From a virus, in the IMG/VR virus record IMGVR_UViG_3300025128_000308, positions 1-25,166 of that record: DNA of 25,166 nt. The stretch is one strand, 5' to 3'. A model generated the notes under the pieces. The model saw only the letters and a program-made list of their open reading frames with translations. It had not been told where the DNA came from and did no database searches. Shown here piece by piece: positions 1,844-25,166 of the stretch. Within the stretch, counting starts at the first letter, position 1, and every line of letters begins with the position of its first letter. Both the position numbers and the translations under genes were made by a program.

Positions 1844-1995
1844 CAGTCTGTCCCTCCGACTTTAATTTCATCTATGTAGTCCTCTTCCAGTTTTATAATG
1901 GCTGCACGTAAATTAATGTTTTCCTTTTGCAATCGCGTAAGCTCAACTGCCATCGCTCTAATTTGGTTTTCTGCGCTTACGCTAATTTCAGTCAT
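1843..1995 (-). CDS. Small coiled-coil protein (50 aa)
   Basis: I found this short gene by translating the gap before the protease. It encodes 50 residues starting MTEISVSAEN, with a leucine/isoleucine heptad region at about residues 12-38 that should form a helix or coiled coil. Its ATG overlaps the last codons of the upstream gene (ATGACTGA), and its TGA overlaps the protease ATG (TGATG), a double overlap typical of translationally coupled phage genes. There is no signal peptide or membrane segment. The function is unknown; a small virion or chaperone-like partner of its neighbours is possible. Confidence 0.65.
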   Translation of the reverse strand: MTEISVSAENQIRAMAVELTRLQKENINLRAAIIKLEEDYIDEIKVGGTD

Positions 1996-2281
1996 CCGTC
2001 GCCGTCGCTTTCACATTTTCATAAATGGCGTCTAGGCGCTCCCATTCAGTTTGTTCTGCATCAATAATAGTTTGATATTTTGTTGTTGTGTTCGCATCCA
2101 AACCGCCCTCAAGAATTTTTAAACGCATCCACATAATCTGCAAGTCTTCTACAATTCTTCCATCGTCGCCAGACCATCTTGGATCAACTTCGTGACCCCT
2201 TGGCCCGCCATTCATCCAATTTGCGATGCCGCAATACCGTTCTTGTTTTGCTTCAGAAATTTTCTGATTTTTGGTTGCCAT
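1988..2281 (-). CDS. Hypothetical protein after the tail fibre gene
   Basis: This 97-residue soluble protein starts MATKNQKISE. It has a strong AAGGAG ribosome site about seven bases before the ATG, which itself comes 13 bases after the fibre gene's stop. The C-terminal half (about residues 45-90) is predicted helical and acidic, with several tryptophans and methionines. I do not recognise the family. Its place between the fibre and a small coiled-coil protein suggests a fibre-assembly or tail-associated role, but this rests on position only. Confidence 0.7.
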   Translation of the reverse strand: MATKNQKISEAKQERYCGIANWMNGGPRGHEVDPRWSGDDGRIVEDLQIMWMRLKILEGGLDANTTTKYQTIIDAEQTEWERLDAIYENVKATATDD

Positions 2282-2294
2282 TTTTTACTCCTTT

Positions 2295-4496: not shown

Positions 4497-4535
4497 TGTC
4501 TACTTCCTATATATATAATATTACCTTTTGACATT

Positions 4536-7964: not shown

Positions 7965-7967
7965 TAC

Positions 7968-9959: not shown

Positions 9960-10522
9960 TATTTATACCCCGGATAGCTGGTGGGATACATTGGAGAGCT
10001 GACAGGCTGAAAACTAGAAGTGGGTGGCGTGGAAGTTGAAGGGATTGCCGTTTGCGAATATCCCATTAACCCCTGGCCGATTGCAGTCAAAGCCCCAAAA
10101 TAACCAGACCGCCGTGCTGATTGACCCGCTTTTCTGACTTGCTGTGCTTGATTTAATTCCATTCCAGCTTGTGCCAACCCTTGCTTGCGGACAATTGTGG
10201 CATTGGTTTCGGCCATTGCAAAATTTGTTGCACCAACGTCAAGAGCTTGAATTTTTAAACCCATTGGATTACCCGAAAATGGATCCATTAAGCCTGCTCC
10301 CGCTGCTGCATTTATTCTTGATTGATAGATTAATGTAGCCTCCAACTCATCTGCGGCCCGTTTTTTATATTCCAATGATTTTTGGCGACTTTCAAAACGA
10401 GTCCAATCAGCCTTAACTTCTAACGCCCGTGCCTGGCCTTCAGCTTGCGCTGCTGCTGCACGGCCTTTTTGAACGGATGAAACGGCAGAAACGACTGCCA
10501 TTGCCAATGCTGCCCATGCCAT
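9959..10522 (-). CDS. Internal virion protein, gp14-like
   Basis: This 187-residue protein starts MAWAALAMAVVSAVSSVQKG, a short apolar stretch. An Ala/Gln/Arg-rich helical body follows (residues 20-150), with a hydrophobic GYFGALTAIGQGLMGYS segment near residue 140 and a Pro/Ser-rich tail. An apolar N-terminus followed by a long helix is characteristic of podoviral internal protein B (T7 gp14, 196 residues), which inserts in the outer membrane during ejection. It lies directly after tail tube B and before the gp15-position gene, exactly as in T7. Confidence 0.75.
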   Translation of the reverse strand: MAWAALAMAVVSAVSSVQKGRAAAAQAEGQARALEVKADWTRFESRQKSLEYKKRAADELEATLIYQSRINAAAGAGLMDPFSGNPMGLKIQALDVGATNFAMAETNATIVRKQGLAQAGMELNQAQQVRKAGQSARRSGYFGALTAIGQGLMGYSQTAIPSTSTPPTSSFQPVSSPMYPTSYPGYK

Positions 10523-10534
10523 ATCTATACCCCT

Positions 10535-13101
10535 TTAATCGGTTGCAACGCTGACACGGTAATCCAATGATAACAGTGTCATAAACAAAGGTTGTGTTTG
10601 GGTGACTTCAACTGTTGCAACGCTGACACGGTAATCCAATGATAACAGTGTCATAAACAAAGGTTGTGTTTGGGTGACTTCAACTTGGCCTTTAAAATCA
10701 TATCCCAAAAACGGACCAATGCGTTTTGTTCCGGTAAATTTTACAATTCCAGCATCTAGCGCCATATCATCAAAACGACGAAAAAATAGTTCCTTGCCGT
10801 TTACGGCCATGCTTTGCGTGTTATCCATAATTACACTTGCTTGTACGATCCTCTTTTTATTTCCCGTAACAGGACCAGACGGCAATCGCGTTTCAACGGG
10901 CATTGTTCGCACCAACGGTGTTGTTTTTGTTGCACTTCCCGCTAGTAAATCGGTAAAGGATGGAAATTCTAAGCCAATTTCAAGATATGTATCTGCGGTC
11001 CTATCACTGACAATTGTATTACTAGCTACCGTTTTGCTGGCCAAAACGCTATCGTCCGCAATAACTTCAACCTCAAAATCTTCAAGCTGATTAATCCCGC
11101 TATTAACGGTTGTGGTTGATGGCAAATTAGCGGCGGCGGCTGTAAATTGTTTTGCTGCATCTGTGGTATAATTGCTATCAAACACCTCGACATAATAGAC
11201 CTCTGTATTTGAAAAGTTTGTCTTTGCCAGGCGTGTGGTATCGCTACTGGTCACAGTCAAATTATCCCGTCCAATTGTTGCCCGTGTGACTGTTACAACG
11301 GCGCTTGACGCTGATGCAGAAAAATTAGCATTGCCATTAATGGCAGCGGCTAAGTTTGTTGCTGTCTGATTATTAGAAGTTGCACTAACCCACTTATCCG
11401 TTGTGGCGCTTCCGGCACTTGTAAAAGTAACCGTATCGCCATCCTGTTTTGTAAGGATAATTGTGCTTCCAACGGCAATATTTGCATAATCTGATACCGT
11501 AATTGTGCAAGTTGCTTCATCCGGGACTGTTCGCTTTATCACTGTGTAGGTAATCGGCGCATCCGCATCTTCAACTTGAACATCGAGAAATGTGCCATCT
11601 GTTGTCAGTAAACTAGGGGCAATCACATTTTGACTTCTCAATATAGAAAAAGCCGCCATTGAGCCATCGCCAGAATTTACCAAAAATAACAAATCACCCT
11701 CATCCACATTCGTTCCGCGCCGCATCGCCATTCGCGTAGGGGTTTGTAAAAGATGCGATGATAAAAGCGAAATATCATTTGAAACATAGGACCCTTCCAC
11801 ATCAAGAAAAAGAAACTCACGTATTGCCTTGCCGCCGCGTTGCAAATGTAATGTTCCGCCCTCCGTAGAAACAGGCATCGTTCCTTCTTTTGTCCCTCTG
11901 GTTGTACTTGGTTTGAAAATAAAGGACGTTGGTGTTAATGGTTCACCGTCAAGCTGCGGCACAATAAATTCACAATAAATTCTGTGCCTGTTGTAAAGAC
12001 TTGAAGATCACGCCCGGAGAATATACCCACACAAGCATTAACTTGATTGGTATCAATGGTGGCTTGCAATGCCTCATCATCGAGCGATTGCCCTGCATCG
12101 AAATTAAAGAAAAGCCCCACCCGTGAGCCCCATATTGTTGTGGGGAGGGATTGAGAACCGCCAATCATTAACCGCCCTTCATGGAAAGTTGCAGTTTTTG
12201 GCCAGCCCTTGCTAGACGACCAGGCATCAACATAGCCCGTTTCCAATGTCCATGCTCCGCTTGCAATTGCAGACGTTGAGAAAAAGGGAACTTCTGTAAC
12301 TGCACTAACAACGGTACTAGACGTAAACCCTGTTATCTTTGCCCTGCCAAAATTATCATTCGCTTGAATATATTGATTTACGTGATCTGAGGTAAATACA
12401 CCGCTGCTGGCGGTTAATGTAATATTCCCCGTCACCGCTGAAGGAGTAAGGGTTGCTGATGGCGTTGTGGCTGCGGGAACAAAATCATATTTGGGAATAA
12501 AGTCATAAGCGATATCGCTCACTGTCCACGTTGCATCATTGGCTCCCCGGACAATTTTTATAGACTGCATCGTTTCCTCAAACAATAACATTGTATCGGC
12601 GCTTTGTGTCCACCATAAATTAGACAATCTTGCACTTGTCACGCCATCCGTTACACCGCTAACACTTGAGGAGCAATCAAGGAAATCATTGCCCGTTCCG
12701 TTAATATTAGTAATTTGAACGCCCTCTTTAAAAATATAAGCGCGTGTCCCGGTAAACAGAAACATATAGGTTTGGGTTGTGGAAAAAGCGAAATTGGCTA
12801 AACGCACCCCGGATTGTGGTGCAGCAACGGATGGGATTGTAAAAACATATCTAAGCCCTGGTCGTCTTTCTACAGAACCTTGGGGTTTGCAAATGACGTT
12901 TCGAGCTCTTTCTAACGCACTCTCGTATTGTTTGAGATCAATTCGGCCTCTTAGCTCCGGGTTAATCCCTTGGGGTTTGCAAATGACGTTTCGAGCTCTT
13001 TCTAACGCACTCTCGTATTGTTTGAGATCAATTCGGCCTCTTAGCTCCGGGTTAATCTCTCCCACCGCAAAGTTCGTTTGAACTTTAATAACTCTGCCCA
13101 T
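10535..13101 (-). CDS. Tail tubular protein B (gp12-like), split by assembly duplications
   Basis: This gene encodes the tail nozzle or stabilisation protein that closes the short tail. The N-terminal part begins MGRVIKVQTNFAVGEINPEL and contains SVERRPGLRY, signatures of this family; the C-terminal part includes REFLFLDVEGSYVSNDISLL. As written it is two frames, 11935-13101 and 10535-11962, broken by an 11-bp tandem duplication at 11961-11982. Removing one 11-bp copy joins FTTGTEFIV directly to PQLDGEPLTP in one frame. Two further in-frame exact duplications add 30 residues near the N-terminus (90 bp) and 24 at the C-terminus (72 bp). The corrected protein would be 797 residues, close to T7 gp12 (794). 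It starts one base after tail tube A. Confidence 0.85.
10542..10685 (-). repeat. Exact 72-bp tandem duplication, 3-prime end of tail tube B
   Basis: Bases 10542-10613 are repeated identically at 10614-10685 with no spacer. The length is a multiple of three, so the frame stays open and the 24 residues beginning VEVTQTQPLF occur twice before the stop. Perfect identity contrasts with the diverged fibre module and points to assembly or very recent slippage. Confidence 0.9.
11960..11982 (-). repeat. 11-bp tandem duplication that shifts frame in tail tube B
   Basis: The 11-mer acaataaattc at 11961-11971 is repeated at 11972-11982. Eleven bases shift the frame by two, and the upstream frame ends in a short nonsense tail (NLLCRSLTVNH). 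Deleting one copy restores a single reading frame through both halves. Confidence 0.9.
12878..13057 (-). repeat. Exact 90-bp tandem duplication near the start of tail tube B
   Basis: Bases 12878-12967 are repeated identically at 12968-13057. The frame is kept, so 30 residues beginning INPELRGRID and ending ICKPQG occur twice. Family members carry this segment once, as I recall, and the copies are identical, which suggests an artefact. Confidence 0.9.
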
Positions 13102-13102
13102 A

Positions 13103-13729
13103 TCACCCTGTCATCCTTACATCGACAATAGGATAATCGGAAATAAATTCGGTACTCGAACCTTGACCATCAACTGTTGCCGCTTGGCGAAAATATCCGC
13201 CTCGCCCTGCATCTGATGAATTGCCAATGGCAACTCTTTCCCAATGCTGCGCTTTGCTGATTTGGTCGGTAACGGGTTCCGCTAAATGCCAAGCCATCGC
13301 ATATTTTAAAAGCTGAATAAAGTAAGACGGCATCTCGGCTTCTAGCGGAATTGCTTGATAGTCAATTGTAATATCTTCGTAATCTGATTGAATTTCTTTT
13401 TCGTAGAGCTCCCATCCTCCTGTAACCGTCCGGGCTCCCACCGCGCTTGAGGCAAAGACCGCCCTTGGAACTCCTGTTAAGCTATCTGAAGGCATTGGAT
13501 AAGCATAATTCCATTCATTAACAGGAGCCGTTGCTGACCGTGCAAGGTCTACTTTTTTAATACTAAAAGACCACGCATACATTGACAGCATCATTGCCCG
13601 AATATCCGGGTACAATGCCTCACAAATACCAGCTTGCGTTGAACCATCTGAAAAAGATGAAATTGTGTTCTCGCCTAAAAGGGTTAAAGCATGAGAACAA
13701 ATCGAAACGTCAGTATCATTAATTGCCAT
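13103..13729 (-). CDS. Tail tubular protein A (gp11-like)
   Basis: This 208-residue protein starts MAINDTDVSICSHALTLLGE. The early SHALTLLG segment, the DIRAMMLSMYAWSFSIKK stretch (residues about 42-60) and the YAYPMPSDSL stretch are typical of podoviral tail tube A or gatekeeper proteins. These form the ring joining portal to nozzle. Length is close to T7 gp11 (196). It lies upstream of tail tube B with a one-base gap, as expected. An AAGGAT ribosome site precedes the ATG, and the preceding 76-base gap holds a hairpin. Confidence 0.85.
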   Translation of the reverse strand: MAINDTDVSICSHALTLLGENTISSFSDGSTQAGICEALYPDIRAMMLSMYAWSFSIKKVDLARSATAPVNEWNYAYPMPSDSLTGVPRAVFASSAVGARTVTGGWELYEKEIQSDYEDITIDYQAIPLEAEMPSYFIQLLKYAMAWHLAEPVTDQISKAQHWERVAIGNSSDAGRGGYFRQAATVDGQGSSTEFISDYPIVDVRMTG

Positions 13730-13749
13730 ACTTAATCCTTATAAAGAAA

Positions 13750-13797
13750 TGACCGGGGCGATAAGGAGAACGCACGGAGAGGAAACCACCCCGGTCA
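13750..13797 (-). terminator. Hairpin between head and tail genes, possible terminator
   Basis: A perfect 9-bp inverted repeat (tgaccgggg at 13750-13758 and ccccggtca at 13789-13797) surrounds a 30-base loop. On the minus strand it is followed by ATTTCTTTAT, a weak U-rich run. It lies in the 76-base gap after the capsid and decoration genes and just before tail tube A, a common site for partial termination that lets capsid transcripts outnumber tail transcripts. The long loop and imperfect U tract make it a weak terminator at best; an RNA processing site is an alternative. Confidence 0.45.
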
Positions 13798-13805
13798 CGG
13801 TAACT

Positions 13806-14087
13806 TTAGTCTGAGTCTGTTGCGCTAACCGCCGTACCGTCCCCGGTATCGACTACGCCAGACGCATTAGAAACAACGGGTGCTAATGAATATGTACGTG
13901 TGCCCCCTGTTGAAGCGTGGATGTAAATTAAATCCCCTACCTTCAACAAATCAGAAGCATCATTAAAATAACCAGAAGCATCAATTGCAGTTTTTGCGTC
14001 AGTGCTGGTATAAGACCAAATTTGGGGAGCATTCCCCGCTTTGGACTGACCACCTATGGGCTGTAGCCCTGCTACTGCATAAGCCAT
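13806..14087 (-). CDS. Small head protein next to the capsid gene, likely decoration
   Basis: This 93-residue protein starts MAYAVAGLQPIGGQSKAG. It has a compact beta-rich sequence with the segments APQIWSYTSTDA, SGYFNDASDLLKVGDLIYIH and a Thr/Gly/Asp-rich tail. I have seen this pattern in small proteins encoded immediately after the major capsid gene in many podoviruses and some other phages, where a head decoration or stabilising role is assumed. It starts ten bases after the capsid stop, and the terminator candidate follows. Gene confidence is high; the role is from context. Confidence 0.75.
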   Translation of the reverse strand: MAYAVAGLQPIGGQSKAGNAPQIWSYTSTDAKTAIDASGYFNDASDLLKVGDLIYIHASTGGTRTYSLAPVVSNASGVVDTGDGTAVSATDSD

Positions 14088-14097
14088 TCGTTTACTC

Positions 14098-14937
14098 CTA
14101 TTCTCTACAGGTTAATTTAACAATTCCAGAATCATCTATGGCCACGGCTCCGGCACTTAGCATACAATTCGTAAGCCAACTTGCTTTTTCTGGGACATAG
14201 TTAATTTCGGTTTTAATGCCGATACCTTCCGCATATCCAACAGCGTCTTTATGCCATGCAAACAATGAACGATCAGAAGACCCGTCAATCGCAAGTCCGC
14301 CTTCGTCCATGTCACCAAGCATAATTATTTTGAAACCCATCCAGGATCCAACACTTCCATCCATCAGATTTCGTGCCGCTACATAGTCGATGCTAGTGGC
14401 CTGACTTTCTGATAAGAGTGAAGCGAGTGAATCCGCATGAATCGCCATATAACGATCTGCTGCGGGAACATTCTGCCCATCTAAGAGGCGCTTTGCTTCA
14501 CGCACCTTTGCGAAATTCAAATTCGTATTTGAACCACCGATACTGTTAGCAACGGTTAAAGATGTTGAAGACGCTGTAAGTGCATCCAATTTAATTTGAT
14601 CGATTCGACGACCAATTGCATTTGATACAACTTGCACCAACTCACTACGTTCATCATAATTGACTTTTTGTTGGTCAAAAATAGATGTGTATTCGGGTGC
14701 AGCATAGTCGGTAAGGGTCGCAACCGCATTGCTATGGGTCACGTTAAGCGGCACCACATCGGTGGAGGGTATGTGTACGGTAGCACTTGCTGAACCAATC
14801 TTCGGAAATTGCACCGTAGACCCCACAACGCCCGTTCTTGAACGACATGAGCCGCCCAATTTTTGAACGCTTTGGTACGCCTGTTTTACTTCGGCTGCAA
14901 AAAGCTTGGTAAAGTTTGTGCTTAGAGATACTGCCAT
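14098..14937 (-). CDS. Major capsid protein
   Basis: This 279-residue protein is encoded after the scaffold and before the tail tube genes, the standard capsid slot. The N-terminal region (SLSTNFTKLFAAEVKQAYQ), the QFPKIGSASATVHIP strand (residues about 43-57), the YTSIFDQQKVNYDERSELVQ segment (about 83-102) and the later VAARNLMDGSVGSWMGFKII (about 185-204) fit HK97-fold capsids of short-tailed phages. It is smaller than T7 gp10A (345). A strong AAGGAG site precedes the ATG, and the largest gap in the window lies upstream with a possible promoter, consistent with high expression. Confidence 0.8.
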   Translation of the reverse strand: MAVSLSTNFTKLFAAEVKQAYQSVQKLGGSCRSRTGVVGSTVQFPKIGSASATVHIPSTDVVPLNVTHSNAVATLTDYAAPEYTSIFDQQKVNYDERSELVQVVSNAIGRRIDQIKLDALTASSTSLTVANSIGGSNTNLNFAKVREAKRLLDGQNVPAADRYMAIHADSLASLLSESQATSIDYVAARNLMDGSVGSWMGFKIIMLGDMDEGGLAIDGSSDRSLFAWHKDAVGYAEGIGIKTEINYVPEKASWLTNCMLSAGAVAIDDSGIVKLTCRE

Positions 14938-15056
14938 CTCAAAGCTCCTTATTTTAAGTTAAAATTTGATCGCCATACAGGTGGGGAACAAACTCCGGCT
15001 GTGGCTTGCAAGTAGGTTCTTGCCGTTACCAACCGACTCAAAGGTTTTGAGGTAGG

Positions 15057-15094
15057 GTTACATTCACAATTTCAGATGTGTATCAATATGTCAA
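15057..15094 (-). promoter_or_regulatory. Possible sigma70-type promoter upstream of the capsid gene
   Basis: On the minus strand the 197-base gap 14938-15134 contains TTGACA at 15089-15094, overlapping a second option, TTGATA (15081-15086) with TGTAAC 18 bases downstream (15057-15062). The -10 matches are imperfect (4 of 6 for TGTAAC). About 20 bases downstream a 6-3-6 inverted repeat (CTCAAA-TTTGAG, 15037-15051) could be an operator or a leader hairpin. This is the largest gap in the window and sits just before the capsid gene. The call is from motif reading only. Confidence 0.35.
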
Positions 15095-15134
15095 TAGTCT
15101 TTTTGTTATGTTTTGGCTATAGACTTACTATTAA

Positions 15135-15365
15135 TTAAAATGTATCAAAGATGCGCCTTAGAATATATGCACGACCCATTGATAAAATAAAGTAGCAAAG
15201 CGTGATCCACCCTGCGACTGCGGGTGTGGGAATTAATCCAAACAAAGGCAACGCAAAATATGTAAACGCCCAACTCACAGCCAATCCAATCACAGCATTT
15301 GTGCCAGATTCAACAAAACTTAATAGTTTGGATTGTTTAACTGCGTCGCCGCGCATATTTGTCAT
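15135..15365 (-). CDS. DUF7220-like small membrane protein
   Basis: This 76-residue protein starts MTNMRGDAVKQSKLLSFVES. It has two hydrophobic segments (residues about 22-44 and 46-64) and a basic C-terminal end, RAYILRRIFDTF. The pattern QSKLLSFVE, two membrane helices and R-YILRR-F matches DUF7220, a family seen in phages and proteobacteria with no known function. A second ATG at 15356 could be the start. Its first bases overlap the end of the preceding small gene. It stands between scaffold and capsid, an unusual place for a membrane protein; a holin-like or superinfection role is conceivable. Confidence 0.65.
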   Translation of the reverse strand: MTNMRGDAVKQSKLLSFVESGTNAVIGLAVSWAFTYFALPLFGLIPTPAVAGWITLCYFILSMGRAYILRRIFDTF

Positions 15366-15561
15366 GCCAATATTTACTCGCGGTTCGCAATTGCGTATTA
15401 ATCATTCTAATCAACTCACACTCTTCACGAATAACATTGTGATATCCCGTTGCAAGCTCATTATCGTCTTCGTTTATCAAAACTTCGGATAACTCGATCA
15501 CTCGGTCTATATGATCGCAGCTATCCGGGGGAATATTTGGTTTATCATTAATGCGGGGCAC
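15337..15561 (-). CDS. Hypothetical protein, GTG start
   Basis: This 74-residue soluble protein starts with GTG (MPRINDKPNI). An AGGA lies about ten bases upstream, overlapping the stop of the scaffold gene. The middle is acidic and helical (VIELSEVLINEDDNELATG) and the C-terminus is basic (WHDKYARRRS). I recognise no family. The end overlaps the following DUF7220-like gene by 29 bases. Position suggests translational coupling with the head genes, though its composition could equally suit a small host-takeover protein. Confidence 0.55.
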   Translation of the reverse strand: MPRINDKPNIPPDSCDHIDRVIELSEVLINEDDNELATGYHNVIREECELIRMINTQLRTASKYWHDKYARRRS

Positions 15562-15567
15562 AAAACA

Positions 15568-16398
15568 TTATCCTAACCCTGGCATATGCCCTTCTGCTTT
15601 GGGATCCATTTTTTCAAGTTGGCGATATACTTTCTGACGATACGCTGGATCTGTATTGTATTTTGGATCCGCAATTAAGCTTTCAAGCTCTGCCTGAGTT
15701 GGAACATCTCCCGCATCTGGCGATGCTTGAATAGGAATTGTCTTCTCACCATAATATTGCCGCAATCGCGTTAAGGCGCGGATACCGTTTGCTGTTCCGC
15801 CCCAAACTTTAAATTCTTCAAAATCATCTTTTGTCCAAGCCCCCTCTTTTAACATTTCCTGGGCCCATTTTACGTGACCATTAATTACCGCTTGCCCATC
15901 CGGGCCAAGCTTTTCAAGTTCGGCTTCGCGGTTAAATTTGTCTTCTTGCTCTGCATCTTCCGGCATATTCTGAGCAACAAGGCCGACAATGGATTCAAAA
16001 TCATCTTGTGTTAGGCCACGATCTGCGGCGACCTTTTTAAAGGAGCTTAACAACGCATCATCTTCTGCTACTTTGTTGTCAAGAAATTTAAGATCATACG
16101 TCCCGTCATCCGGCACGATATGCTTACCGTTCCGTAATTTCTTATACAACTCATCTTGACTTTTCGCCAAACCCTCATAATCCGGTCCTTTATCGTCATT
16201 CCAAAACCTTTCTGGCAACCATTCTGGTCTGTCATCACCCGTTGATGGATCTGTATGCGCTGGCTCTGGAGCTTCTTCTGCTGGAGCCGCATCTTCTCTC
16301 GATACGCTCTCCGCCGTTGATAATAAGCCCTCTTGGGGTGAAGTTTCGGCGGTATTTTGTTCTGTTGTTTCCTCTTGACCGTTTTCATTCTCAGCCAT
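15568..16398 (-). CDS. Capsid assembly scaffolding protein
   Basis: This 276-residue, strongly acidic protein is encoded between portal and capsid. Residues 1-55 are low-complexity Glu/Thr/Ala/Pro. A conserved block follows (DRPEWLPERFWNDDKGPDYE, residues about 56-75, then LAKSQDELYKKL) that I associate with scaffold proteins of podoviruses. The C-terminal about 35 residues are helical and charged (YRQKVYRQLEKMDPKAEG), which suits a capsid-binding tail. Scaffolds guide procapsid assembly and then leave the head. It shares one base with the upstream stop at 16398, indicating coupled translation. Confidence 0.8.
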   Translation of the reverse strand: MAENENGQEETTEQNTAETSPQEGLLSTAESVSREDAAPAEEAPEPAHTDPSTGDDRPEWLPERFWNDDKGPDYEGLAKSQDELYKKLRNGKHIVPDDGTYDLKFLDNKVAEDDALLSSFKKVAADRGLTQDDFESIVGLVAQNMPEDAEQEDKFNREAELEKLGPDGQAVINGHVKWAQEMLKEGAWTKDDFEEFKVWGGTANGIRALTRLRQYYGEKTIPIQASPDAGDVPTQAELESLIADPKYNTDPAYRQKVYRQLEKMDPKAEGHMPGLG

Positions 16399-16685
16399 TA
16401 CATTCCTCTCGCTCTATTGGCTCTCATTAAAATTTCCCGTACTAACGTGTTTTGCCCTTCTCTAAAATATCCAAAATCAGGACTGTATCCAGGAGCCCAA
16501 GAAGGTTGCCCAAGATAAGCATTTGTAAGCCATTCCAACATCTTTTCTCCGTCTGGAGAATCAAGGACATGCGCTATTGCGCGGTCTAACATTCCTTGCT
16601 CCGTATCAGATTGAGGCGGAGGAAGAGGTTGTTCAGCATTAACGCCCTCCCATCCCGGCGCATTGATATCAATAATTTCAGCCAT
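16398..16685 (-). CDS. Bbp19-like small head protein
   Basis: This 95-residue protein starts MAEIIDINAPGWEG. The C-terminal segment FGYFREGQNTLVREILMRAN resembles the Bbp19 family, small proteins encoded beside portal genes in podoviruses. The middle holds a helical DRAIAHVLDSPDGEKMLEWL segment. It overlaps the portal stop by one base and the scaffold start by one base, so all three are coupled. The function is unknown; a role in portal-scaffold assembly is suggested only by position. Confidence 0.65.
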   Translation of the reverse strand: MAEIIDINAPGWEGVNAEQPLPPPQSDTEQGMLDRAIAHVLDSPDGEKMLEWLTNAYLGQPSWAPGYSPDFGYFREGQNTLVREILMRANRARGM

Positions 16686-18265
16686 TAAGCCGGACTTTCA
16701 TCAGGCGGCATTTGTTGAGCGCCCACTTGCTGTGCCATTTGCTGTGCCATTTGTTCCATTTCGGCTCTCTCCTCTTCGCTTGTTCTCAATTGCATTGGAA
16801 CCCCTAAACGATCCGCAACCCAATCGGAAATTGCATCCATTTTTACTGTTGCTATTCCCGCTGGTCCCATTTGTGTTGCTATTCCCATCCATTGCATAAC
16901 ATCTTGCACATCATCCATATTCTGCGCTTGCGCTAATGGTGATACCGGAACAACCTTAATATCCTGTCCGTTAACTTTTAGATCCAGTTTTGGAATAATT
17001 CGCGCCTCTTCCATGACCGCCAAAGAACGCACTACAATTGGAACCATCGTTTCGGTTATTAAACGACCAAACGCACTTCCTAAATTTGTGGCAAGCTCTC
17101 GCATCCTTTCAACAATTTCGGTAGCACTTCGTGCGCTCATATTATCAGGAGGAAGGCTATCATCGAGCAGTATGCGTTTTATGTTTAATCGTAAATCTTG
17201 CAAAACGATTTGCGTTAATTGCAAATCTCCGGCTCTTTGCAGAGGTTGCAAAGACGGTCCTTGTGGCCCCGCATTTCGCGCAACGGGAACAACTGCACCG
17301 GGAACAATTCGGATTGTTTGTGGATTTAAAACGCCATCATCAACTGCGGTATATACTCCGGCAATATTCAAACTGGCATTTTTTAAAAGCAATTCTACAG
17401 TTTTATTAAGAGATTTAATATCATCAAGGGCTTGAACAACCGGACCCCTTCCATAAACCTCCCCACTGGCTTTCATGTAACGGCTCACAACCCACGGCGA
17501 TGTTTTTAAATAGCGATACACAACCATATCGTTTGTGCCTTCGTTGCTTTTGTGACAAATGTAATAATCAAAACCACCGTCTTTAACATTAACGATTGTG
17601 CTTTCCTGGAGCTCAACAGGCTCTTGCGGTTTATCTTCTAACATTCTTTGCATGGGCTCAGATAATTTAGCATCTGGCCATTCGCGGGTTATATTTTCAA
17701 CTGACATTCGTATTTTGCGATACACATTTTCAACAACGCCGCCCGGACCCTCTTCCAATGCAACTTGAAATTGTGGAATCGCCCGAAAGTTAATCGGCTT
17801 TAACGCTGTTCCCGGTTGAATTAACATAATGCCTGTGCCAACAGACAAATCCATTAAAAACTCACCAAGAGCAAGATCGAAATTAGTTTGACGAATGAGA
17901 GTAAAAAACCTATCCGTTAATTCCTGGCAACCGTTTCGCACATCAGCATCCATTTCTGATGGAATATCAATTCCAGGCTGTAGCGCCATCCAATGTTTAT
18001 CAGGCGGAAATAATCCAGATTGCAACCGATTTGCAAACCGCTGGACACCATGCACCGCCGTAGAGTCAAAAACTTTACCTGTTTTATGTTTCCCAGACGT
18101 TCCTGATTTCCAACTGCCATCATACAAATTGCGCTGCGGTAGAGCATATTCGTAACATTGCTCGTATAGATCACGCCAATTCTCTTTGGCGGACCAGGCC
18201 GCATCAAAACGCTTTTTTATTTTTTCAACAGATTGTGAGGGTTTTCGCCTAGATCGTGCTGCCAT
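16685..18265 (-). CDS. Portal (head-to-tail connector) protein
   Basis: This 526-residue protein is the dodecameric channel through which DNA enters and leaves the head. It fits the podoviral head-tail connecting family (PF12236). The N-terminal KKRFDAAWSAKENWRDLYEQ and QRNLYDGSWKSG are followed by VFDSTAVHGVQRFANRLQSG (residues about 65-84), a central GRGPVVQALDDIKSLNKTVE segment (about 273-292) and the helical SARSATEIVERMRELATNLG (about 382-401). The end is Gln/Met-rich with short repeats (MAQQMAQQ), as usual for this family. The length is typical. It overlaps the upstream gene by 17 bases and sits between packaging and scaffold genes. Confidence 0.9.
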   Translation of the reverse strand: MAARSRRKPSQSVEKIKKRFDAAWSAKENWRDLYEQCYEYALPQRNLYDGSWKSGTSGKHKTGKVFDSTAVHGVQRFANRLQSGLFPPDKHWMALQPGIDIPSEMDADVRNGCQELTDRFFTLIRQTNFDLALGEFLMDLSVGTGIMLIQPGTALKPINFRAIPQFQVALEEGPGGVVENVYRKIRMSVENITREWPDAKLSEPMQRMLEDKPQEPVELQESTIVNVKDGGFDYYICHKSNEGTNDMVVYRYLKTSPWVVSRYMKASGEVYGRGPVVQALDDIKSLNKTVELLLKNASLNIAGVYTAVDDGVLNPQTIRIVPGAVVPVARNAGPQGPSLQPLQRAGDLQLTQIVLQDLRLNIKRILLDDSLPPDNMSARSATEIVERMRELATNLGSAFGRLITETMVPIVVRSLAVMEEARIIPKLDLKVNGQDIKVVPVSPLAQAQNMDDVQDVMQWMGIATQMGPAGIATVKMDAISDWVADRLGVPMQLRTSEEERAEMEQMAQQMAQQVGAQQMPPDESPA

Positions 18266-18641
18266 AATCTTTTCTATTAAATATTGAACCAGAAGAACCT
18301 AACGTAGAAGCGTCTGTATTTGCTGTTGCTAATAAAGGTCGCCGCCGTTGTCTTAAATTGCGCTTTTCCCCTGCCAACACAGCCGCATCATCAAACAATG
18401 GTGATTTTTCCGGCGGACTTACAGTAGGAGAAGCGGTAGCGTCACCAGTAGGCATTTGCGATTTGATCTGTTTGCCAAGCGCTTTCATTGTCTCGCCAGA
18501 AGTAATTTGGTTGGGAGCGCCAACATTGCCGGGTGTGCCTCCACCTTGCGCCGGACTCATTCCACCGTGAGGACCGCCATCTGGAAGTGATGGTTTACCC
18601 AAACCGCCCAAACCACCAGCGCCACCAACACCACCTGTCAT
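18249..18641 (-). CDS. Gly/Pro-rich small protein upstream of the portal
   Basis: This 130-residue protein starts MTGGVGGAGGLGGLGKPSLP. The first 50 residues are Gly/Pro low complexity. The C-terminal third has a basic-hydrophobic motif (KRNLRQRRRPLLATANTDAS) ending near an SSGSIFN segment. Small proteins with an Arg-rich end of this kind precede the portal in other podoviruses; I know no function. Its ATG follows the previous stop directly. The C-terminal motif resembles that of the preceding gene. A minor head or packaging protein is the best guess. Confidence 0.65.
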   Translation of the reverse strand: MTGGVGGAGGLGGLGKPSLPDGGPHGGMSPAQGGGTPGNVGAPNQITSGETMKALGKQIKSQMPTGDATASPTVSPPEKSPLFDDAAVLAGEKRNLRQRRRPLLATANTDASTLGSSGSIFNRKDYGSTI

Positions 18642-18920
18642 TTAATTTGACCCCGTTTTCTTTTTAAAAGAAACATTCCCAAGCTGTTGTTGATCGGGAA
18701 CACCAAGATATGCGCTTTGCGTATCCAGCAAAGGATCAACTGACAAAAGCTTGCGCCTACCGCCTTGTCGCCGCGCTCGTTTACGTGCCGACAACGCCTT
18801 GGCATCTTCTGCGGCGTTAGCGGCGATACGGTCTTCCTGTTCTTTCTGTAACCGTAATAGTTCGGGATCAGGTCCCGGAGGAGGTGGAGGTGCTTTGGGT
18901 GTGCTTAATATTCCGCCCAT
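18642..18920 (-). CDS. Small Pro/Arg-rich protein
   Basis: This 92-residue protein starts MGGILSTPKAPPPPPGPDPE. The start at 18920 is chosen because an AAGGAT ribosome site lies just upstream; the in-frame codon 15 positions earlier has no comparable site. A proline run (residues 11-15) is followed by a charged helix and an Arg-rich motif (RRQGGRRKLLSVDPLLDT) before the C-terminus. It overlaps the end of the gp13-like gene by 53 bases. It may be a minor virion protein. The Arg-rich C-terminal motif is shared with the next gene. Confidence 0.65.
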   Translation of the reverse strand: MGGILSTPKAPPPPPGPDPELLRLQKEQEDRIAANAAEDAKALSARKRARRQGGRRKLLSVDPLLDTQSAYLGVPDQQQLGNVSFKKKTGSN

Positions 18921-19410
18921 CTTTAATCCTTGCAAACATAAAAAAATCGTGTCCATCCGGGCCATATTGTTTTAATAGACCCTCCTTTTTAAAATACATG
19001 GATTCAATCCATTTTCTAGCCTGTAAGTTTCGTGAATGTACGGTGCACTGAAGGCGAATCATATTTAATTCCTCAATATAAATATTAAACATTTGCCGTG
19101 ATACGCGATGAAAGGTACGTGCAAAGCGCGGTAAGCGAACATCTGTTAACATCCAAACCTCTCCAACACCGTTCCATAGCGGCACAAGACCAAAAGCGCA
19201 CACCGGGCTACCGTTTGCGACACCGCACCAGGCATAACCAATGTTTTTATAAGCATCCGTAAGGCTGGCATAATTAGCCACATAATCTGGAAAGACACGA
19301 TCCCATTTGCGGAGCTGCATTAGTTTCAAAAGAGGGGATTCAAACTCAATTAATTTTCGCTCTGAATTTAATCCGAGAGCGTGATTGAGAGCATTAATAT
19401 CGTTAAGCAT
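18868..19410 (-). CDS. T7 gp13-like (DUF2833, GNAT-like) protein
   Basis: This is a 180-residue protein starting MLNDINALNHALGLNS. It has a GNAT-like fold pattern: an AWCGVANGSPVCAFGLVP strand region (residues about 60-77), then VWMLTDVRLPRFARTFHRVS, and a C-terminal VHSRNLQARKWIESMYFKKE segment, typical of acetyltransferase-like folds and of the DUF2833 family that includes T7 gp13. T7 gp13 is needed for virion assembly. The ATG at 19410 is inside the terminase stop region (ATGCTTAA), so translation is coupled; a TTG four codons earlier is less likely. The gene sits beside the large terminase rather than beside gp14 as in T7. Confidence 0.65.
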   Translation of the reverse strand: MLNDINALNHALGLNSERKLIEFESPLLKLMQLRKWDRVFPDYVANYASLTDAYKNIGYAWCGVANGSPVCAFGLVPLWNGVGEVWMLTDVRLPRFARTFHRVSRQMFNIYIEELNMIRLQCTVHSRNLQARKWIESMYFKKEGLLKQYGPDGHDFFMFARIKDGRNIKHTQSTSTSSGT

Positions 19411-21020
19411 CGTAGAGATCAAAATCCATTTTTGCCTGTGGGTGATGGGTCCAGGTCATAGGTCGTCGCGTCATGCGTTTATGTTCTCCGCCGCCCAACA
19501 CCAGATAGCCATACGCATCTCCGACATGGGAGTGTTCATTTTTGTTAGGGACATCTTTAAATCGTTCCTGTCCGGCTCCGATTGCGACGCGAGAGAAATG
19601 ATAGCCCCCGGCAAGGGCTTTACGAATCCGCGCACATTTACGGTTCACCAATAAACCCGGCTTTTTGTCAATAAAGCGGATCATAGGCGCAGCCATTGCT
19701 TCACGCCGTGTTTTCCAATCATTCGTCGCTGTCGGTCTTGCCAGCAAGCCAATTGACTGTAGATAGGCAAATGAGGTGGTTTCGTAAATCTGATCGCGCT
19801 GCTGGCCAGCGGGATCGCCCCATATCATAATTTCCGCCTTATGAAACAAGGTTTCAATTTCTGCTTTTAGTTTCGTTCCAAAATTCTCCAAACCCATGTC
19901 AAACGTCACAAGCTCATGGATGATGCGCCATTGACCATGTATCGAGCGTTGCCCAAACACAGCCGCAGGGGTTAAACCAAAATCAAGACCAATTTGCAGA
20001 GGCAAAGTTGGATCATATTCAAGTTTCTCCGCTGTCATCGTTTCATCGTCATACTCAGGTGTAATTGGCTTGCCTTCAACAACGTAGGTATATTCGCCTT
20101 TTGCGTAGCAGCGTATCCAATCCAAATTCTTGCCGCCCACAAGCTGATCGTAATAACCTGGGGGCAAATTGTTGACATTTTCTGCTCGTGGGTTAGCCAT
20201 CCACCATTTACCAGCCGACATTACAAAACCATTAAACTCTGGATTTTCCGGCAACTCTTCCTCTGGAACTTCCAATACGCCGGACGGTTGGCGGTAAAAA
20301 TCCCATGCATATGTTCCAAGTGGCGCTTCTTTGCCTTCAGCCAGCCGCCAGTACCAATGATCTGAATCACAGGGGTTAGTGTCCATCCAGATTCCGCGCC
20401 ATGTGGGGCCACCATCTGCCTTTGTAGGGTATCTTCCAACTCTGTGGGTGAGGCCATCGACAATGGCTTTAGGCAATTCCCGACACTCATTAATCCATGC
20501 TCCGGTTAATTCCAGGGACAAAAGTTTGCGAACATCTTTTGGCTGGTCAAGGGCCAGGAAAATAACTTCACAATCGACACCATGCGCTCCTTCACGGCTC
20601 GGTAGTTTGATGTGATGGGTAATCGGCGGCGACCAATGCGCCCTGCCCCATATATTCTCAGGAAATATCTCCATCCATGTTTTGAGCGTTGTTGTTCTCA
20701 GCATGGGATAAGAGTTTCGCACAATCACAAATCGTGTATAGCGGATTCCATCACGGGGAGATGGCTTTTGTTTAACTGCGCGGAGCATTAATTCAGCAGC
20801 GCAAGCATAGGATTTGCCACTTCCCACTGGTCCCATTAAGCCGCGTACAAATTTATCCGAGTTCAAAAATTTCCAGACAGTCGGCGCAGTTGAAAAATCT
20901 AAGTTTAAATCAGCCACTTCCCACTGGTCCCATTAAGCCGCGTACAAATTTATCCGAGTTCAGAAATTTCCAGACAGTCGGCGCAGTTGAAAAATCTAGG
21001 TTTAAATCAGCTACAGACAT
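19403..21020 (-). CDS. terL: Terminase large subunit, 5-prime end broken by duplication
   Basis: This ATP-driven packaging motor and nuclease has a Walker A motif, GPVGSGKS (residues about 31-38 of the corrected protein), and a Walker B-type catalytic Glu in GAWINECREL. Its nuclease domain has acidic residues in GLDFG (Asp 314), WGDPAG (Asp 370) and HVGDAYGYL (Asp 469). The true start is the ATG at 21020 (MSVADLNLDF) with an AGGA site upstream. As written, a 97-bp duplication makes this frame stop at once after VGSG. The long frame reopens at a GTG (20917) inside the second copy. Deleting one copy gives 506 residues, the normal size. The small terminase-like gene is upstream. Confidence 0.9.
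20816..21009 (-). repeat. 97-bp imperfect tandem duplication at the terL start
   Basis: Bases 20816-20912 and 20913-21009 are adjacent copies with two differences (ttcaaaaat against ttcagaaat, and ctaagttt against ctaggttt). Ninety-seven is not divisible by three, so the frame is broken. The mismatches suggest that overlapping ends from two closely related variants were placed end to end. Confidence 0.9.
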
Positions 21021-21031
21021 TTTTTTTCCTG

Positions 21032-21208
21032 TTATCCGTTATGATTTACAAGCTCATGTGCTACCAGATAAAAAGCTTCGCAGTTTGAGCAAACAAAATT
21101 GCTTTCAAACAAAAATTCATCACAATACTTACCTGTTCCTTCAAGGTCGTGATCGCCACTGTGAATAACCCGACCCCCACAAAAAAAACATTTATGTTTA
21201 TCCGTCAT
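21032..21208 (-). CDS. Small zinc-finger protein between terminase genes
   Basis: This 58-residue protein starts MTDKHKCFFCGG. It has a CxxC pair at the N-terminus (Cys 7 and 10) and a second near the middle (NFVCSNCEAF), plus His residues. Together these should bind one structural zinc ion. The start at 21208 is chosen because it follows an AAGG ribosome site and overlaps the end of the small terminase-like gene. The function is unknown; a DNA-binding helper for packaging is possible given its position. Confidence 0.65.
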   Translation of the reverse strand: MTDKHKCFFCGGRVIHSGDHDLEGTGKYCDEFLFESNFVCSNCEAFYLVAHELVNHNG

Positions 21209-21641
21209 TTCCCTTATCCTTGACTTCTTCATAGGTGGTGGTCAAATCAGGCCCGACCATCTTAATGCCAACAACAGATGGGGCATCCGGTCCCTTTTCC
21301 GGCGCTTCCAAAAGCCCCGCAGACTTCGCAAGGACACGGAGAACGGAAACCTTATCGTGCATTTCCAGCTCTAGTGTAGGATCGCCATTTTTGCTTTTCG
21401 TTACACGGATACGCTTAATGGCACAGGCCACCTCGTCGGGTATATCCGCTGATGCTTTGACCTTAACATTTCCCTCTTCATCCCAGGTAAGAACGTCAGT
21501 AAGATTGGCTCCCGCAATATTCAGAAGATATTGCGCTACGGCATTTTTATTTTGCGCCACAACATCATTACGGCCCTTTAATCTATTCTCTAAGCGTTTC
21601 ACTCCGCCAAAGCGCCCTGTTGGGCTATGTGTCCCTGCCAT
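21198..21641 (-). CDS. Terminase small subunit-like protein
   Basis: This 147-residue protein is encoded two genes before terL. Its centre and C-terminus (GANLTDVLTWDEEGNVKVKA, DIPDEVACAIKRIRVTKSKN and LELEMHDKVSVLRVLAKSAG) match the C-terminal half of the Terminase_2-type small subunit family, which recognises phage DNA and activates the motor. The usual N-terminal helix-turn-helix is not evident: only about 35 basic residues precede this part (MAGTHSPTGRFGGVKRLENR). It overlaps the previous gene by 17 bases. Confidence 0.65.
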   Translation of the reverse strand: MAGTHSPTGRFGGVKRLENRLKGRNDVVAQNKNAVAQYLLNIAGANLTDVLTWDEEGNVKVKASADIPDEVACAIKRIRVTKSKNGDPTLELEMHDKVSVLRVLAKSAGLLEAPEKGPDAPSVVGIKMVGPDLTTTYEEVKDKGNDG

Positions 21642-21825
21642 TTGCCGCCTCTTTTAGCCAGATTTCAGCCAGTAGTTGCACAATCCCGTCACCGCCTTCA
21701 AAGCTGGCGGGTGGAGTTTGGTTCGCTGCAATATAAATTGAATCATAAGAAAATGTGCGTTTTTGCTTTTTCATCCATCGCCAATGATCGAGCGCGATTT
21801 GTTCAGCTTTCGCGGTAGCGTTCAT
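21625..21825 (-). CDS. Hypothetical small protein
   Basis: This 66-residue protein starts MNATAKAEQIALDHWRWMKK and ends WLKEAANGRDT. The ATG at 21825 overlaps the nuclease gene stop (ATGA), which is why I prefer it over the in-frame codon 39 positions upstream. The sequence is helical with aromatic residues; there is no membrane segment or metal motif. I recognise no family. It links replication genes to packaging genes and overlaps the small terminase start by 17 bases. Confidence 0.55.
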   Translation of the reverse strand: MNATAKAEQIALDHWRWMKKQKRTFSYDSIYIAANQTPPASFEGGDGIVQLLAEIWLKEAANGRDT

Positions 21826-22142
21826 CGTGTAATTTCCACAATCTTTATGCCGTATTGAGCTTCGACCATTTTTTTCTTGAGGCGATAGACCGCCGTTTTT
21901 ACCCCTTTGACATCCTCCACTACAGACTCGCCTTGGCGACAATAGCGGAAATCGGCAAAATAATTACAGATATGGCGACCTTCGATAGAGATCGGAAATT
22001 TGGGTTGCATTTCAAGATTTGAAATCTCGCATCGTGAATGCATATCCTTCAGCGCCAAATACCGATAGCTCTCTGCTTTACTGTCAAAAGTTATGCCGTC
22101 CAGTTTCACACGAATATTTCCATATTTGCTTCTGCGCCCCAT
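21822..22142 (-). CDS. DUF1064 family endonuclease-like protein
   Basis: This 106-residue protein has the DUF1064 pattern: GRRSKYGNIRV at the start, FDSKAE (Glu 24), YFADFRY (Asp 64) and EDVKG (Asp 77, Lys 79). The Asp and Asp-x-Lys arrangement is that of PD-(D/E)xK nucleases. Family members are common in phage replication modules and are thought to cut DNA, possibly as Holliday-junction or nicking enzymes; the exact substrate is unknown to me. The length is normal. It starts in a TAATG overlap with the preceding gene, so its translation is coupled. Confidence 0.75.
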   Translation of the reverse strand: MGRRSKYGNIRVKLDGITFDSKAESYRYLALKDMHSRCEISNLEMQPKFPISIEGRHICNYFADFRYCRQGESVVEDVKGVKTAVYRLKKKMVEAQYGIKIVEITR

Positions 22143-22393
22143 TAATGCAGCGTCCTTAATTTCATCTTTCGCGGCGTGTTTATTTTGCGTGGTCTGTACC
22201 CACCCCGGCGCTCCACATATAACGGTGCATCTAATCCGTTATCGAAATAGGGTTTAAGCTTTTCATCAAAACTTCTATTCCAGGGATCGCGCACCTTAAC
22301 CATCAATTGCCGCACCCCCTCATCCCGATTAAACTTTGAAGCCATCAACAATTGCTTGGCAAGAAGTCCCGCTTCAGCTTCCCGCACCGTCAT
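22142..22393 (-). CDS. Hypothetical protein in the replication module
   Basis: This 83-residue protein starts MTVREAEAGLLAKQLLMASK under the start chosen here (22393), which overlaps the previous gene by 20 bases. The same frame stays open up to 22555, with further ATG codons at 22489, 22496 and 22429-type positions, so the start is uncertain. The C-terminus is basic (RGGYRPRKINTPRKMKLR), suggesting nucleic-acid contact. I recognise no family. Confidence 0.5.
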   Translation of the reverse strand: MTVREAEAGLLAKQLLMASKFNRDEGVRQLMVKVRDPWNRSFDEKLKPYFDNGLDAPLYVERRGGYRPRKINTPRKMKLRTLH

Positions 22394-22991
22394 AACCGTA
22401 AGCCGCCGCCAAACGATCTGAGCTTTCATTCCGCGCTTCGGAACAATGTTGCATTCTGCGATAGCGACCCACGATGTTGGTCTTTCCATTAAATTCATCA
22501 ATTTTCCTTTCCAGCGCTTCCACCAAAAAGATTCGGCGCTTACATTTTTGCCCAATTCTGTCCTGTAACTCCTTCCATGTGGGCCACCATTGACTGCGAT
22601 CAGGGGCTTCCCTTAATGTTTCCAAAACAGCATCACGGGGGTATGCCCTTAATTTTTCGATATAGGCTTCCAGCGTAATATCCATCTCCGGGGCTGATTG
22701 GCGTTTATGACTGGTTAGCGCCCATAGGCGGTTTAATTCCATCAAAAGCTCTCGATCACTGGCCGGGGCCATGCTTTTGGCGAGTTGCCCATGCGTTATT
22801 TTCAAACTTTCCAAAGTCGGATTGCCTTTAATGGCATAGTGGCTAATCTGTATTCCCCCGGATATGTTTGGATAAACCGCGTCTAGCCAAAAACCGTTCT
22901 GAGGCTTCGACAATACCTTCGCCGCGTGACGATCCGCCTCCAGCGCTGTTGTTCTTGGATTTAACACTGTAACTGCTGTCTTGCTCATCAT
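22374..22991 (-). CDS. Replication-module protein downstream of the initiator
   Basis: This is about 205 residues starting MMSKTAVTVLNPRTT, chosen because AGGAAAGGTGG lies just before the ATG pair at 22991/22988. The central block (LMELNRLWALTSHKRQ, then YIEKLRAYPRDAVLETLREA and SQWWPTWKELQDRI) resembles the phage pattern of a helix followed by RSRWWPAWAEL, common next to replication initiators. The end is basic. It overlaps the initiator gene by about 149 bases, which is long, so a later start is possible. A helicase-loader-like partner is one option by analogy with lambda O/P, but I see no ATPase motif. Confidence 0.55.
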   Translation of the reverse strand: MMSKTAVTVLNPRTTALEADRHAAKVLSKPQNGFWLDAVYPNISGGIQISHYAIKGNPTLESLKITHGQLAKSMAPASDRELLMELNRLWALTSHKRQSAPEMDITLEAYIEKLRAYPRDAVLETLREAPDRSQWWPTWKELQDRIGQKCKRRIFLVEALERKIDEFNGKTNIVGRYRRMQHCSEARNESSDRLAAAYGYDGAGS

Positions 22992-23630
22992 CCCACCTTT
23001 CCTGGTTAAGCCATGTTGATGGATGGCATATAAAATTTGGATCAGGATTGTATCGTGCCAGCCCCGCCATAATTTTTTTATGAGGCACATTTTGCACGGC
23101 CTTTAAATACGCTTTTCTGGCAGCGCCTTTTCCGACCCGTTTTGGATATTGCTCCCAAAATTGATCGAAGTTATTTGCCTTTAAGTCGGCAACCTTTTGA
23201 TGCTGTTCCCTATATAATAAAGAAAGTGATGGTTCTAATGGTGGTTCATACCGCGCCTCCGCTAGGTTTAGATGTGCGCCTCCGCTAGGTTTAGCTTTCT
23301 TAACCCCGCGCGTGCGCGGTATTAAGATTTTATACTTTGTTCCCTTCTTTCCCTGCTTGCTTGGCACAGTTCCAACTCTGGATAATTCTCCCATTTCGAT
23401 TAAAATGTTGAGATTTTTACTAATGTTTGAAACATGAACATTTGCCATTTTTGCGAGGCGTGAAAGACTTGGCCATGCGACACCATCCTCGCCATTTTTG
23501 CGAGGCGTGAAAGACTGGGCCATGCGACACCATCCTCATCCGCATGATCCGCCAGGCTGAGTAAAATAAGTCGTGCCGTTCCTTTGGCCTGACTATGCTC
23601 CCACACCGCTTTACTGGCCTCCAGGCTCAT
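22843..23630 (-). CDS. Winged-helix replication initiator-like protein, split by duplication
   Basis: In the corrected frame this is a 246-residue protein. The N-terminus (MSLEASKAVWEHSQAKGTAR, then LADHADEDGVAWPSLSRLAK and NVHVSNISKNLNILIEMGEL) is the winged-helix DNA-binding part of phage replication proteins. The C-terminus (NFDQFWEQYPKRVGKGAARK, then FICHPSTWLNQERWDDE) is the typical second domain. As written a 47-bp duplication splits it into 23400-23630 and 22843-23523; removing one copy restores a single frame. The start overlaps the upstream stop (ATGA). The linker carries two 19-bp direct repeats, a candidate origin. It probably recruits replication machinery. Confidence 0.75.
23255..23340. 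other. Candidate replication origin inside the initiator gene
   Basis: Two identical 19-bp direct repeats (gcgcctccgctaggtttag, 23255-23273 and 23278-23296) are spaced 23 bases start to start, close to two helical turns. They are followed by a 6-2-6 GC palindrome (23308-23321) and a 19-base tract with only two G/C (23322-23340). In phage lambda the origin lies inside gene O, in the linker, as 19-bp iterons next to an AT-rich tract. This arrangement is similar but has only two repeats. Removing one repeat would create a stop codon, so it is not one of the assembly duplications. Confidence 0.35.
23444..23537 (-). repeat. 47-bp tandem duplication in the initiator gene
   Basis: Bases 23444-23490 are repeated at 23491-23537 with one mismatch (agacttggcc against agactgggcc). 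The unit encodes parts of DGVAWPSLSRLAKMA, and the length breaks the frame. Deleting either copy joins both halves in one frame. Confidence 0.9.
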
Positions 23631-23827
23631 GCTGATGCACGTTCCATCAAAGCAACAAATTTCTTCAGCCTAACCTGATCGTTTGCCCCTCTTTCATCAA
23701 GGCCATCTTCAACAAACTCAACCAGCAGTCGCGTCATTGATGTGCCCTCAAGGGCCCCTTGTGCCTTTAAGCGTGTGTGTAAATCAGATGGTAGCGAAAA
23801 TGTTGTTGTGGTTTTATTTTCATTCAT
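23627..23827 (-). CDS. Ribbon-helix-helix (CopG/Arc-type) regulator
   Basis: This is a 66-residue protein starting MNENKTTTTFSLPSDLHTRL. The short beta segment (TTTTFSLP) followed by two helices (LHTRLKAQGALEG and MTRLLVEFVEDGLDE) is the ribbon-helix-helix fold, which binds DNA as a dimer and usually represses transcription. Two in-frame ATG codons exist. GGAGG lies one base before the first (23833) but seven bases before the second (23827), so the second is chosen. It overlaps the next gene by ATGA and may control the early region. Confidence 0.75.
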   Translation of the reverse strand: MNENKTTTTFSLPSDLHTRLKAQGALEGTSMTRLLVEFVEDGLDERGANDQVRLKKFVALMERASA

Positions 23828-23964
23828 CTCCATTCCTCCGGTTGAGCTCGATCACCCGTACAACAATCCTCAATAACCTGGCCGCAAATGTCGCATTGAA
23901 AATGCCCGTGGACATCAATAGGCGAACACCCTTGCTGGCAATTGGGACATATAATTCTATCCAT
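23824..23964 (-). CDS. Small zinc-ribbon protein (46 aa)
   Basis: This short gene was found by translating the gap between its neighbours. It encodes MDRIICPNCQQGCSPIDVHG and then FQCDICG, with CPNC and CDIC pairs about 18 residues apart. This is the pattern of a one-zinc ribbon, as in small DksA-like or nucleic-acid-binding proteins. The start is the only ATG, with GGAG-type purines upstream (AGAGGAGTG). The end overlaps the ribbon-helix-helix gene start. Function unknown; phages often encode such proteins to alter host transcription. Confidence 0.65.
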   Translation of the reverse strand: MDRIICPNCQQGCSPIDVHGHFQCDICGQVIEDCCTGDRAQPEEWR

Positions 23965-23975
23965 TTTTCACTCCT

Positions 23976-24230
23976 CTAATCCGGCAATCCAAAAGGATCC
24001 CTGTCATCGCGTGGCGGCATCGTGCCCTCACGTTCCTTGGGTGGCATCATTACAACCCGTATCTCAAACTCGCCGGAATCATTCATCTGTCCCGTTGGCA
24101 AAGCATCAAAACTTAAATTATAACCGTCCTTGGAATTACCCTTCCAGGGAAACGCTACCCCAATCTTCGTCCAAAAACTTTTCCCGTCTTTGTTTGTCTT
24201 CACCGTATGTAGTTCGTATCTGTCCGCCAT
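23976..24230 (-). CDS. Conserved small phage protein (unknown function)
   Basis: This 84-residue protein starts MADRYELHTVKTNKDGKSFW. The pattern KDGKSFWTKIGVAFPWK, then GYNLSFDALPTG and EFEIRVVMMPPKE, is one I have seen in many alphaproteobacterial phage and plasmid proteins of unknown function. The predicted fold is a small beta barrel. An AAGGAGA site sits before the ATG. It overlaps the 3-prime end of the DUF6378 gene by 95 bases in another frame; the ribosome site and composition support this start. A single-strand DNA or nucleotide-binding role is only a guess. Confidence 0.7.
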   Translation of the reverse strand: MADRYELHTVKTNKDGKSFWTKIGVAFPWKGNSKDGYNLSFDALPTGQMNDSGEFEIRVVMMPPKEREGTMPPRDDRDPFGLPD

Positions 24231-24535
24231 CTTCTTTCTCCTTTATTAATTTCATAATTTCAAAACCTACTGCTGCGTAACCAGCAATATCGATCCAGCT
24301 ATCTTCATGCAGTGGATCATTCATCAGACGAGATATCTTCATCTGAATACAAATTAATACCCCCTGTAGAGCCGATACATCCATTTCAAGAAGGGGTGAC
24401 AAAAAAGCACTCAACCTTGCGTAATGACAAAAAAGCACTCAACCTTGCGTAATTATCTTGAGGCGAACCATAGGACTCCCTACGGTCCCTCACAGCCGCA
24501 TCAGCAGCAGCTAAACATTCAGAGGCAAGCGTCAT
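24136..24535 (-). CDS. DUF6378 family protein, split by duplication
   Basis: The corrected gene starts at 24535 (MTLASECLAAADAAVRDRRE), with AGGAG at 24544-24548 eight bases upstream, and encodes 123 residues. The motifs ESYGSPQDNYARLSAFL, ALQGVLICIQMKISRLMNDP and HEDSWIDIAGYAAVG match DUF6378, a common phage family of unknown biochemistry, possibly nucleotide-related. As written a 28-bp duplication (24397-24452) causes a stop soon after the first copy; the other frame resumes at 24438. Removing one copy joins them. It follows a palindrome-rich gap. Confidence 0.75.
24397..24452 (-). repeat. 28-bp exact tandem duplication in the DUF6378 gene
   Basis: Bases 24397-24424 are repeated identically at 24425-24452. 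The unit encodes part of YARLSAFLS. The length breaks the frame and separates the start codon from the body of the gene. Confidence 0.9.
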
Positions 24536-24565
24536 TGAAAAAACTCCTAAATATTTTTGTGTGTG

Positions 24566-24623
24566 CCCCCGTATATACGAAGGGGGGTGGGGCCCCCAAA
24601 GCCTCCTTTTGGCTAGAGGCCCC
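24566..24623. promoter_or_regulatory. Palindrome-rich GC region between early genes
   Basis: The 143-base gap 24536-24678 contains a perfect 10-bp palindrome, cgtatatacg (24570-24579), flanked by CCCCC and GGGGG runs that can form a hairpin. It also contains ggggcccc (24589-24596) and a ggggcc/ggcccc pair (24589-24594 and 24618-24623) enclosing an agcc/ggct stem. On the plus strand this last hairpin is followed by ggttttcctcactttttt, so it could terminate antisense transcription. It may also be an operator or leader upstream of DUF6378. I see no confident promoter boxes here. Confidence 0.4.
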
Positions 24624-24678
24624 GGTTTTCCTCACTTTTTTAAGGTAGCAACGATTTGTAAATATCCTTATCCTTGGT

Positions 24679-25124
24679 TTAGCCACTTGACACGCCCTCC
24701 TTTTTCAGCAGAAAACCGAGACTTTCAGGGGCTCCCTTCCTGTTGGCTCTACAGTCCATTAAGTAAGCTGTAGCTTGTGCCTTTATGTCTTCCCGGGGAA
24801 TTTCTGCTAGCACTTCTTGAGTTGCTTTAAAAGCTTTCTCATTAACCAACTTTAATTGTCCAGTTAAGCCATGCGCTTCCTTGCTATACCATTGAGCAAG
24901 AGAGTTCACCTCAACTAGCTCAACCTTACTCTTCTGGTTTTCCTGTTTACCCTGGTCGGCTTCTGGTTTTCCTGTTTACCCTGGTCGGCCTCTGGTATTT
25001 CTATTTCTGGTTGCTTTGGTAATTCACTTACATCAATCGGTGGTGGGTCCTCTTTCGTCATTACATCATGTAGATCATCAACCGTTAATCTTTCATCATA
25101 TATGACACGATGAACTGTGCCCAT
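24679..25124 (-). CDS. Hypothetical early protein, split by duplication
   Basis: As written two frames appear, 24915-25124 (starting MGTVHRVIYDERLTVDDLHD) and 24679-24909. A 29-bp exact duplication (24932-24989) separates them. With one copy removed they form one 138-residue protein: an acidic N-terminal half (residues 20-50, Pro/Glu/Asp-rich), the KSKVELVEVNSLAQWYSKEA junction and a helical C-terminus (NEKAFKATQEVLAEIPREDI, then RANRKGAPESLGFLLKKEGV). The frames match exactly after correction. I recognise no family. It is the first gene here and may be part of a longer early operon. Confidence 0.6.
24932..24989 (-). repeat. 29-bp exact tandem duplication in the first gene
   Basis: Bases 24932-24960 are repeated identically at 24961-24989. 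Twenty-nine bases shift the frame, giving a short nonsense end (PTRVNRKTRRVRLS) to the upstream frame. Removing one copy restores one reading frame. Confidence 0.9.
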
Positions 25125-25166
25125 TATGTGTTTCCATTTCTCATGGCTCCGATGACGGCTTACTAC

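Follow-up and report, generated by a model that had tools for sequence, protein, structure and literature searches.

Seven adjacent duplications in a marine phage contig very likely reflect unmerged contig overlaps

Here, we analysed a window of 25,166 nucleotides of marine phage DNA (the whole of the stretch at positions 1 to 25,166 of IMG/VR record IMGVR_UViG_3300025128_000308) and found seven adjacent direct duplications, which very likely arose where overlapping contig ends were joined without being merged. That they are a technical artefact of one kind or another is close to certain. The unmerged-overlap interpretation, put forward in an earlier note on this DNA, was supported because a near-identical contig and more distant relatives are single-copy at these sites, reading frames break at the copies, microhomology at the breakpoints is at chance level, mismatches between copies are synonymous, and the pattern is rare elsewhere; the unit lengths, all below 100 bp, agree with it as well.

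Duplications and affected genes

Tandem Repeats Finder, together with a direct repeat search, recovered units of 72 bp (10542–10685), 11 bp (11960–11981), 90 bp (12878–13057), 97 bp (20816–21009), 47 bp (23444–23537), 28 bp (24397–24452) and 29 bp (24931–24988). All seven duplications listed in the earlier note were thus present, with two starts moving by one base, to 11960 and 24931. The copies were exact in five of the seven pairs, and the mismatches claimed for the remaining two were located in the 97-bp pair (2 mismatches) and the 47-bp pair (1 mismatch). Window 1–10541 contained no exactly repeated adjacent unit of 11 bp or longer, in line with the claim that the first 10.5 kb is free of such duplications, and 50 shuffled versions of the window likewise yielded none of this length.

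The affected genes all lie on the minus strand. The tail protein gene (phrog_376; 10535–13101) is broken into two ORFs by a frame shift at the 11-bp duplication, and it also contains the 72-bp duplication near its 3′ end and the 90-bp duplication near its 5′ end, both in frame. In the gene for the terminase large subunit (19403–20917), the 97-bp duplication lies over the 5′ end. The gene is readable from a GTG inside the first copy, with an open frame of 504 aa from that codon, and the loss is confined to the displaced original start and a short stub at the 5′ end. The replication initiation protein gene (HTH_36; 22843–23630) is broken into two overlapping ORFs by the 47-bp duplication, while the 28-bp and 29-bp duplications split the DUF6378 gene (24136–24535) and a right-end gene of unknown function (24679–25166), respectively.

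Two further repeats were considered and set apart from these seven. A 19-bp repeat with a 4-bp spacer at 23253–23294 was rejected as an eighth case because the proteins of relatives align through it in frame and without a gap, and it is probably natural. A 239-nt repeat with copies at 3145 and 3475 (window 3145–3713) is 72% alike between copies, which lie 330 apart and are not adjacent; both copies fall within a single intact ORF of 733 aa, and the repeat probably belongs to a tail fibre.

Copy number and reading frames in related contigs

The contig IMGVR_UViG_3300006929_000088 (27,482 bp; loci L037 and L047) was collinear with window 1–19665 and differed from it by 32 substitutions. At all three duplication sites that it covers (72, 11 and 90 bp), this near-identical contig carries a single copy. 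Besides the three extra copies, one further indel separated the two sequences, namely 27 bp in a repeat of 9-bp units at window position 18597. There, three units of a CCCAAACCG-type repeat in a glycine-rich coding stretch are present in L037 and missing from the window, a difference that is likely natural repeat-number variation. Separately, 15 of the 32 substitutions were concentrated within 630 bases at window 242–868, a clustering suggestive of recombination or strain mixing at the left end.

Exact-pattern scans over the 23.4-kb and 21-kb sites returned no near-identical contig for the four right-hand sites (97, 47, 28 and 29 bp), and copy number at these four was compared with relatives at about 65–80% DNA identity alone. 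Such relatives align with one copy at all seven sites. The comparison with related phages that had been proposed as a check gave the same answer at both distances, with the near-identical contig single-copy at three of three covered sites and the distant relatives at all seven. The closest isolate by the window terminase is Methylophilales phage MEP301 (MW452941; 67% identical in amino acids along the entire query); this phage and podoviruses further removed, BcepC6B for example, are related at the protein level only and served as context outside the duplication test.

The 72- and 90-bp units preserve the reading frame, the other five lengths are not divisible by three, and the frame breaks at these five sites coincide with the duplicated copies. 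When the flanks were joined locally, a single long frame ran through the 11-, 47-, 28- and 29-bp sites. The claim that five genes are split and that removal of one copy restores each frame was thus upheld at these four sites; for the terminase gene at the 97-bp site, "split" proved slightly overstated. The same positions emerged with no joining needed, as alignments of single ORFs of relatives to the window changed from one frame to another at the 11-, 97-, 47-, 28- and 29-bp sites and nearly nowhere else. For example, an 800-aa ORF of L037 matches frames −3 and −2, meeting at the 11-bp duplication, and ORFs of relatives match frames −1 and −2, meeting at the 97-bp duplication. A frame change against locus L048 was also noted at window 21628–21916 (21.8–21.9 kb), where two window ORFs overlap and duplication is absent.

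Rarity, breakpoints and alternative origins

To estimate how often such duplications occur, 390 further IMG/VR loci (3.77 Mb) were screened with a tandem-duplication detector. One part of this set consisted of relatives recognised through their terminase, capsid, replication and DUF6378 proteins, and the remainder was sampled with an arbitrary word of 14 bases. About two cases of a plain two-copy duplication reaching 25 bp or more were found in the 390 loci (L196, 33 bp; L356, 28 bp), compared with six in the 25-kb window. Two surveyed loci, L303 and L315, contained short-unit arrays. The pattern of the window was absent from all 390 surveyed loci, whose contigs were sampled from many datasets; such duplications are not a general trait of these contigs or of this phage group. 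Exact 22-bp tandem duplications were observed in two terminase-group relatives, at 2254 in L010 and at 9737 in L011.

Short identical stretches at the unit ends are the usual trace of slippage and recombination, and chimeras formed during amplification usually arise at short complementary stretches. Microhomology at the seven breakpoints totalled 5 bases, compared with 4.9 ± 2.6 (SD) expected for random ends, and no slippage-type signature beyond chance was found at the seven sites. The plain duplications in L196 and L356 had 6 bases of microhomology each, and other, shorter duplications ranged from 0 to 16. All three mismatches between copies were synonymous, falling in two Leu codons of the 97-bp pair and one Pro codon of the 47-bp pair; small as this number is (n = 3), such differences are more in keeping with a pair of sister strains than with read errors. 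Substitutions near the junctions were weakly enriched (4 observed versus about 1 expected, P about 0.07), and this was set aside as evidence.

These observations bear on several other origins. Chimeras from whole-genome amplification or library preparation, in which template switching to a nearby site enters the consensus at low depth, are very unlikely to be the source. They too would be expected to leave false duplications missing from relatives, perhaps clustered in the low-depth part of a contig, but short complementary stretches beyond chance were not seen at the breakpoints, and the synonymous copy differences would need a join between templates from two strains.

It is highly improbable that the phage DNA truly contains these tandem duplications, as the product of slippage during replication or of illegitimate recombination in a genome that is decaying or defective, even though the copies do stand in the record, two of them in frame, and plain duplications of 28–33 bp exist in other viral contigs. 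The extra copies are absent from a contig that differs by just 32 substitutions over 19.6 kb; because this contig lacks all three of the duplications that it covers, they are not to be attributed to phage biology. Furthermore, the count is far too high for one genome, five of the duplications strike genes or gene starts (tail, terminase and replication genes included), and the stretch covered by L037 holds no other disabling indel. The statement that slippage in seven genes is very unlikely is accordingly sustained by the chance-level microhomology and by the missing copies in the near-identical contig.

A fault in assembler graph traversal, with a strain-variant path walked twice, in place of end-to-end joining of finished contigs, is likewise most unlikely. 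The strain-like mismatches in two pairs would suit it, and variable lengths below 100 bp are also possible from k-mer graph effects; against it, no k is shared by the varying lengths, and five pairs are exact, so there was no variant path for the assembler to walk. Least probable of all, and to be given hardly any weight, is a source population whose essential genes truly harbour numerous short tandem duplications formed independently of homology, for example through an unusual end-joining or hypermutating process that yields defective genomes.

Proposed assembly origin and its consequences

Under the preferred explanation, joining of contig ends without merging, the record would consist of eight pieces in correct order and orientation, of 10613, 1357, 997, 7945, 2578, 934, 535 and 207 bp. 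Neighbouring pieces would overlap by 11–97 bp, and an assembly or scaffolding step would presumably have written each overlap twice without merging it; units below 100 bp may be expected if the overlaps were too short to merge at a large k-mer. Pieces derived from sister strains would account for copies with synonymous substitutions, and the phage itself would carry one copy per site. Piece sizes tend to fall towards the right end, which would fit falling depth. Counted against this explanation were that two of the seven units are in frame and, seen alone, could be real variants, that the near-identical contig reaches the three left sites and none of the four right-hand ones, and that substitutions near the junctions are no more than weakly enriched.

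A search of the literature found nothing direct on an unmerged-overlap artefact in viral contigs. False duplications, both heterotype and homotype, are known in genome assemblies (PMC9516828). As in the window, sequence is written twice there, sometimes adjacently, when two versions of one region are left unmerged; heterotype duplications resemble the window copies with strain variants, and homotype duplications resemble its identical copies. However, the described cases are large, come from vertebrate assemblies and are often gapped, whereas those in the window are 11–97 bp long, gapless and located in a viral metagenome contig.

Read in this way, the record contains spurious frameshifts in several genes, those for tail and replication proteins among them, together with a displaced terminase start; gene counts based on it would be wrong, as would claims of pseudogenes or "split genes" based on it. 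An adjacent duplication without microhomology, combined with a frame break, offers a low-cost means of detecting errors of this kind in other viral metagenome contigs. The significance of the finding is that of a quality warning, and its interest for the biology of the phage is low.
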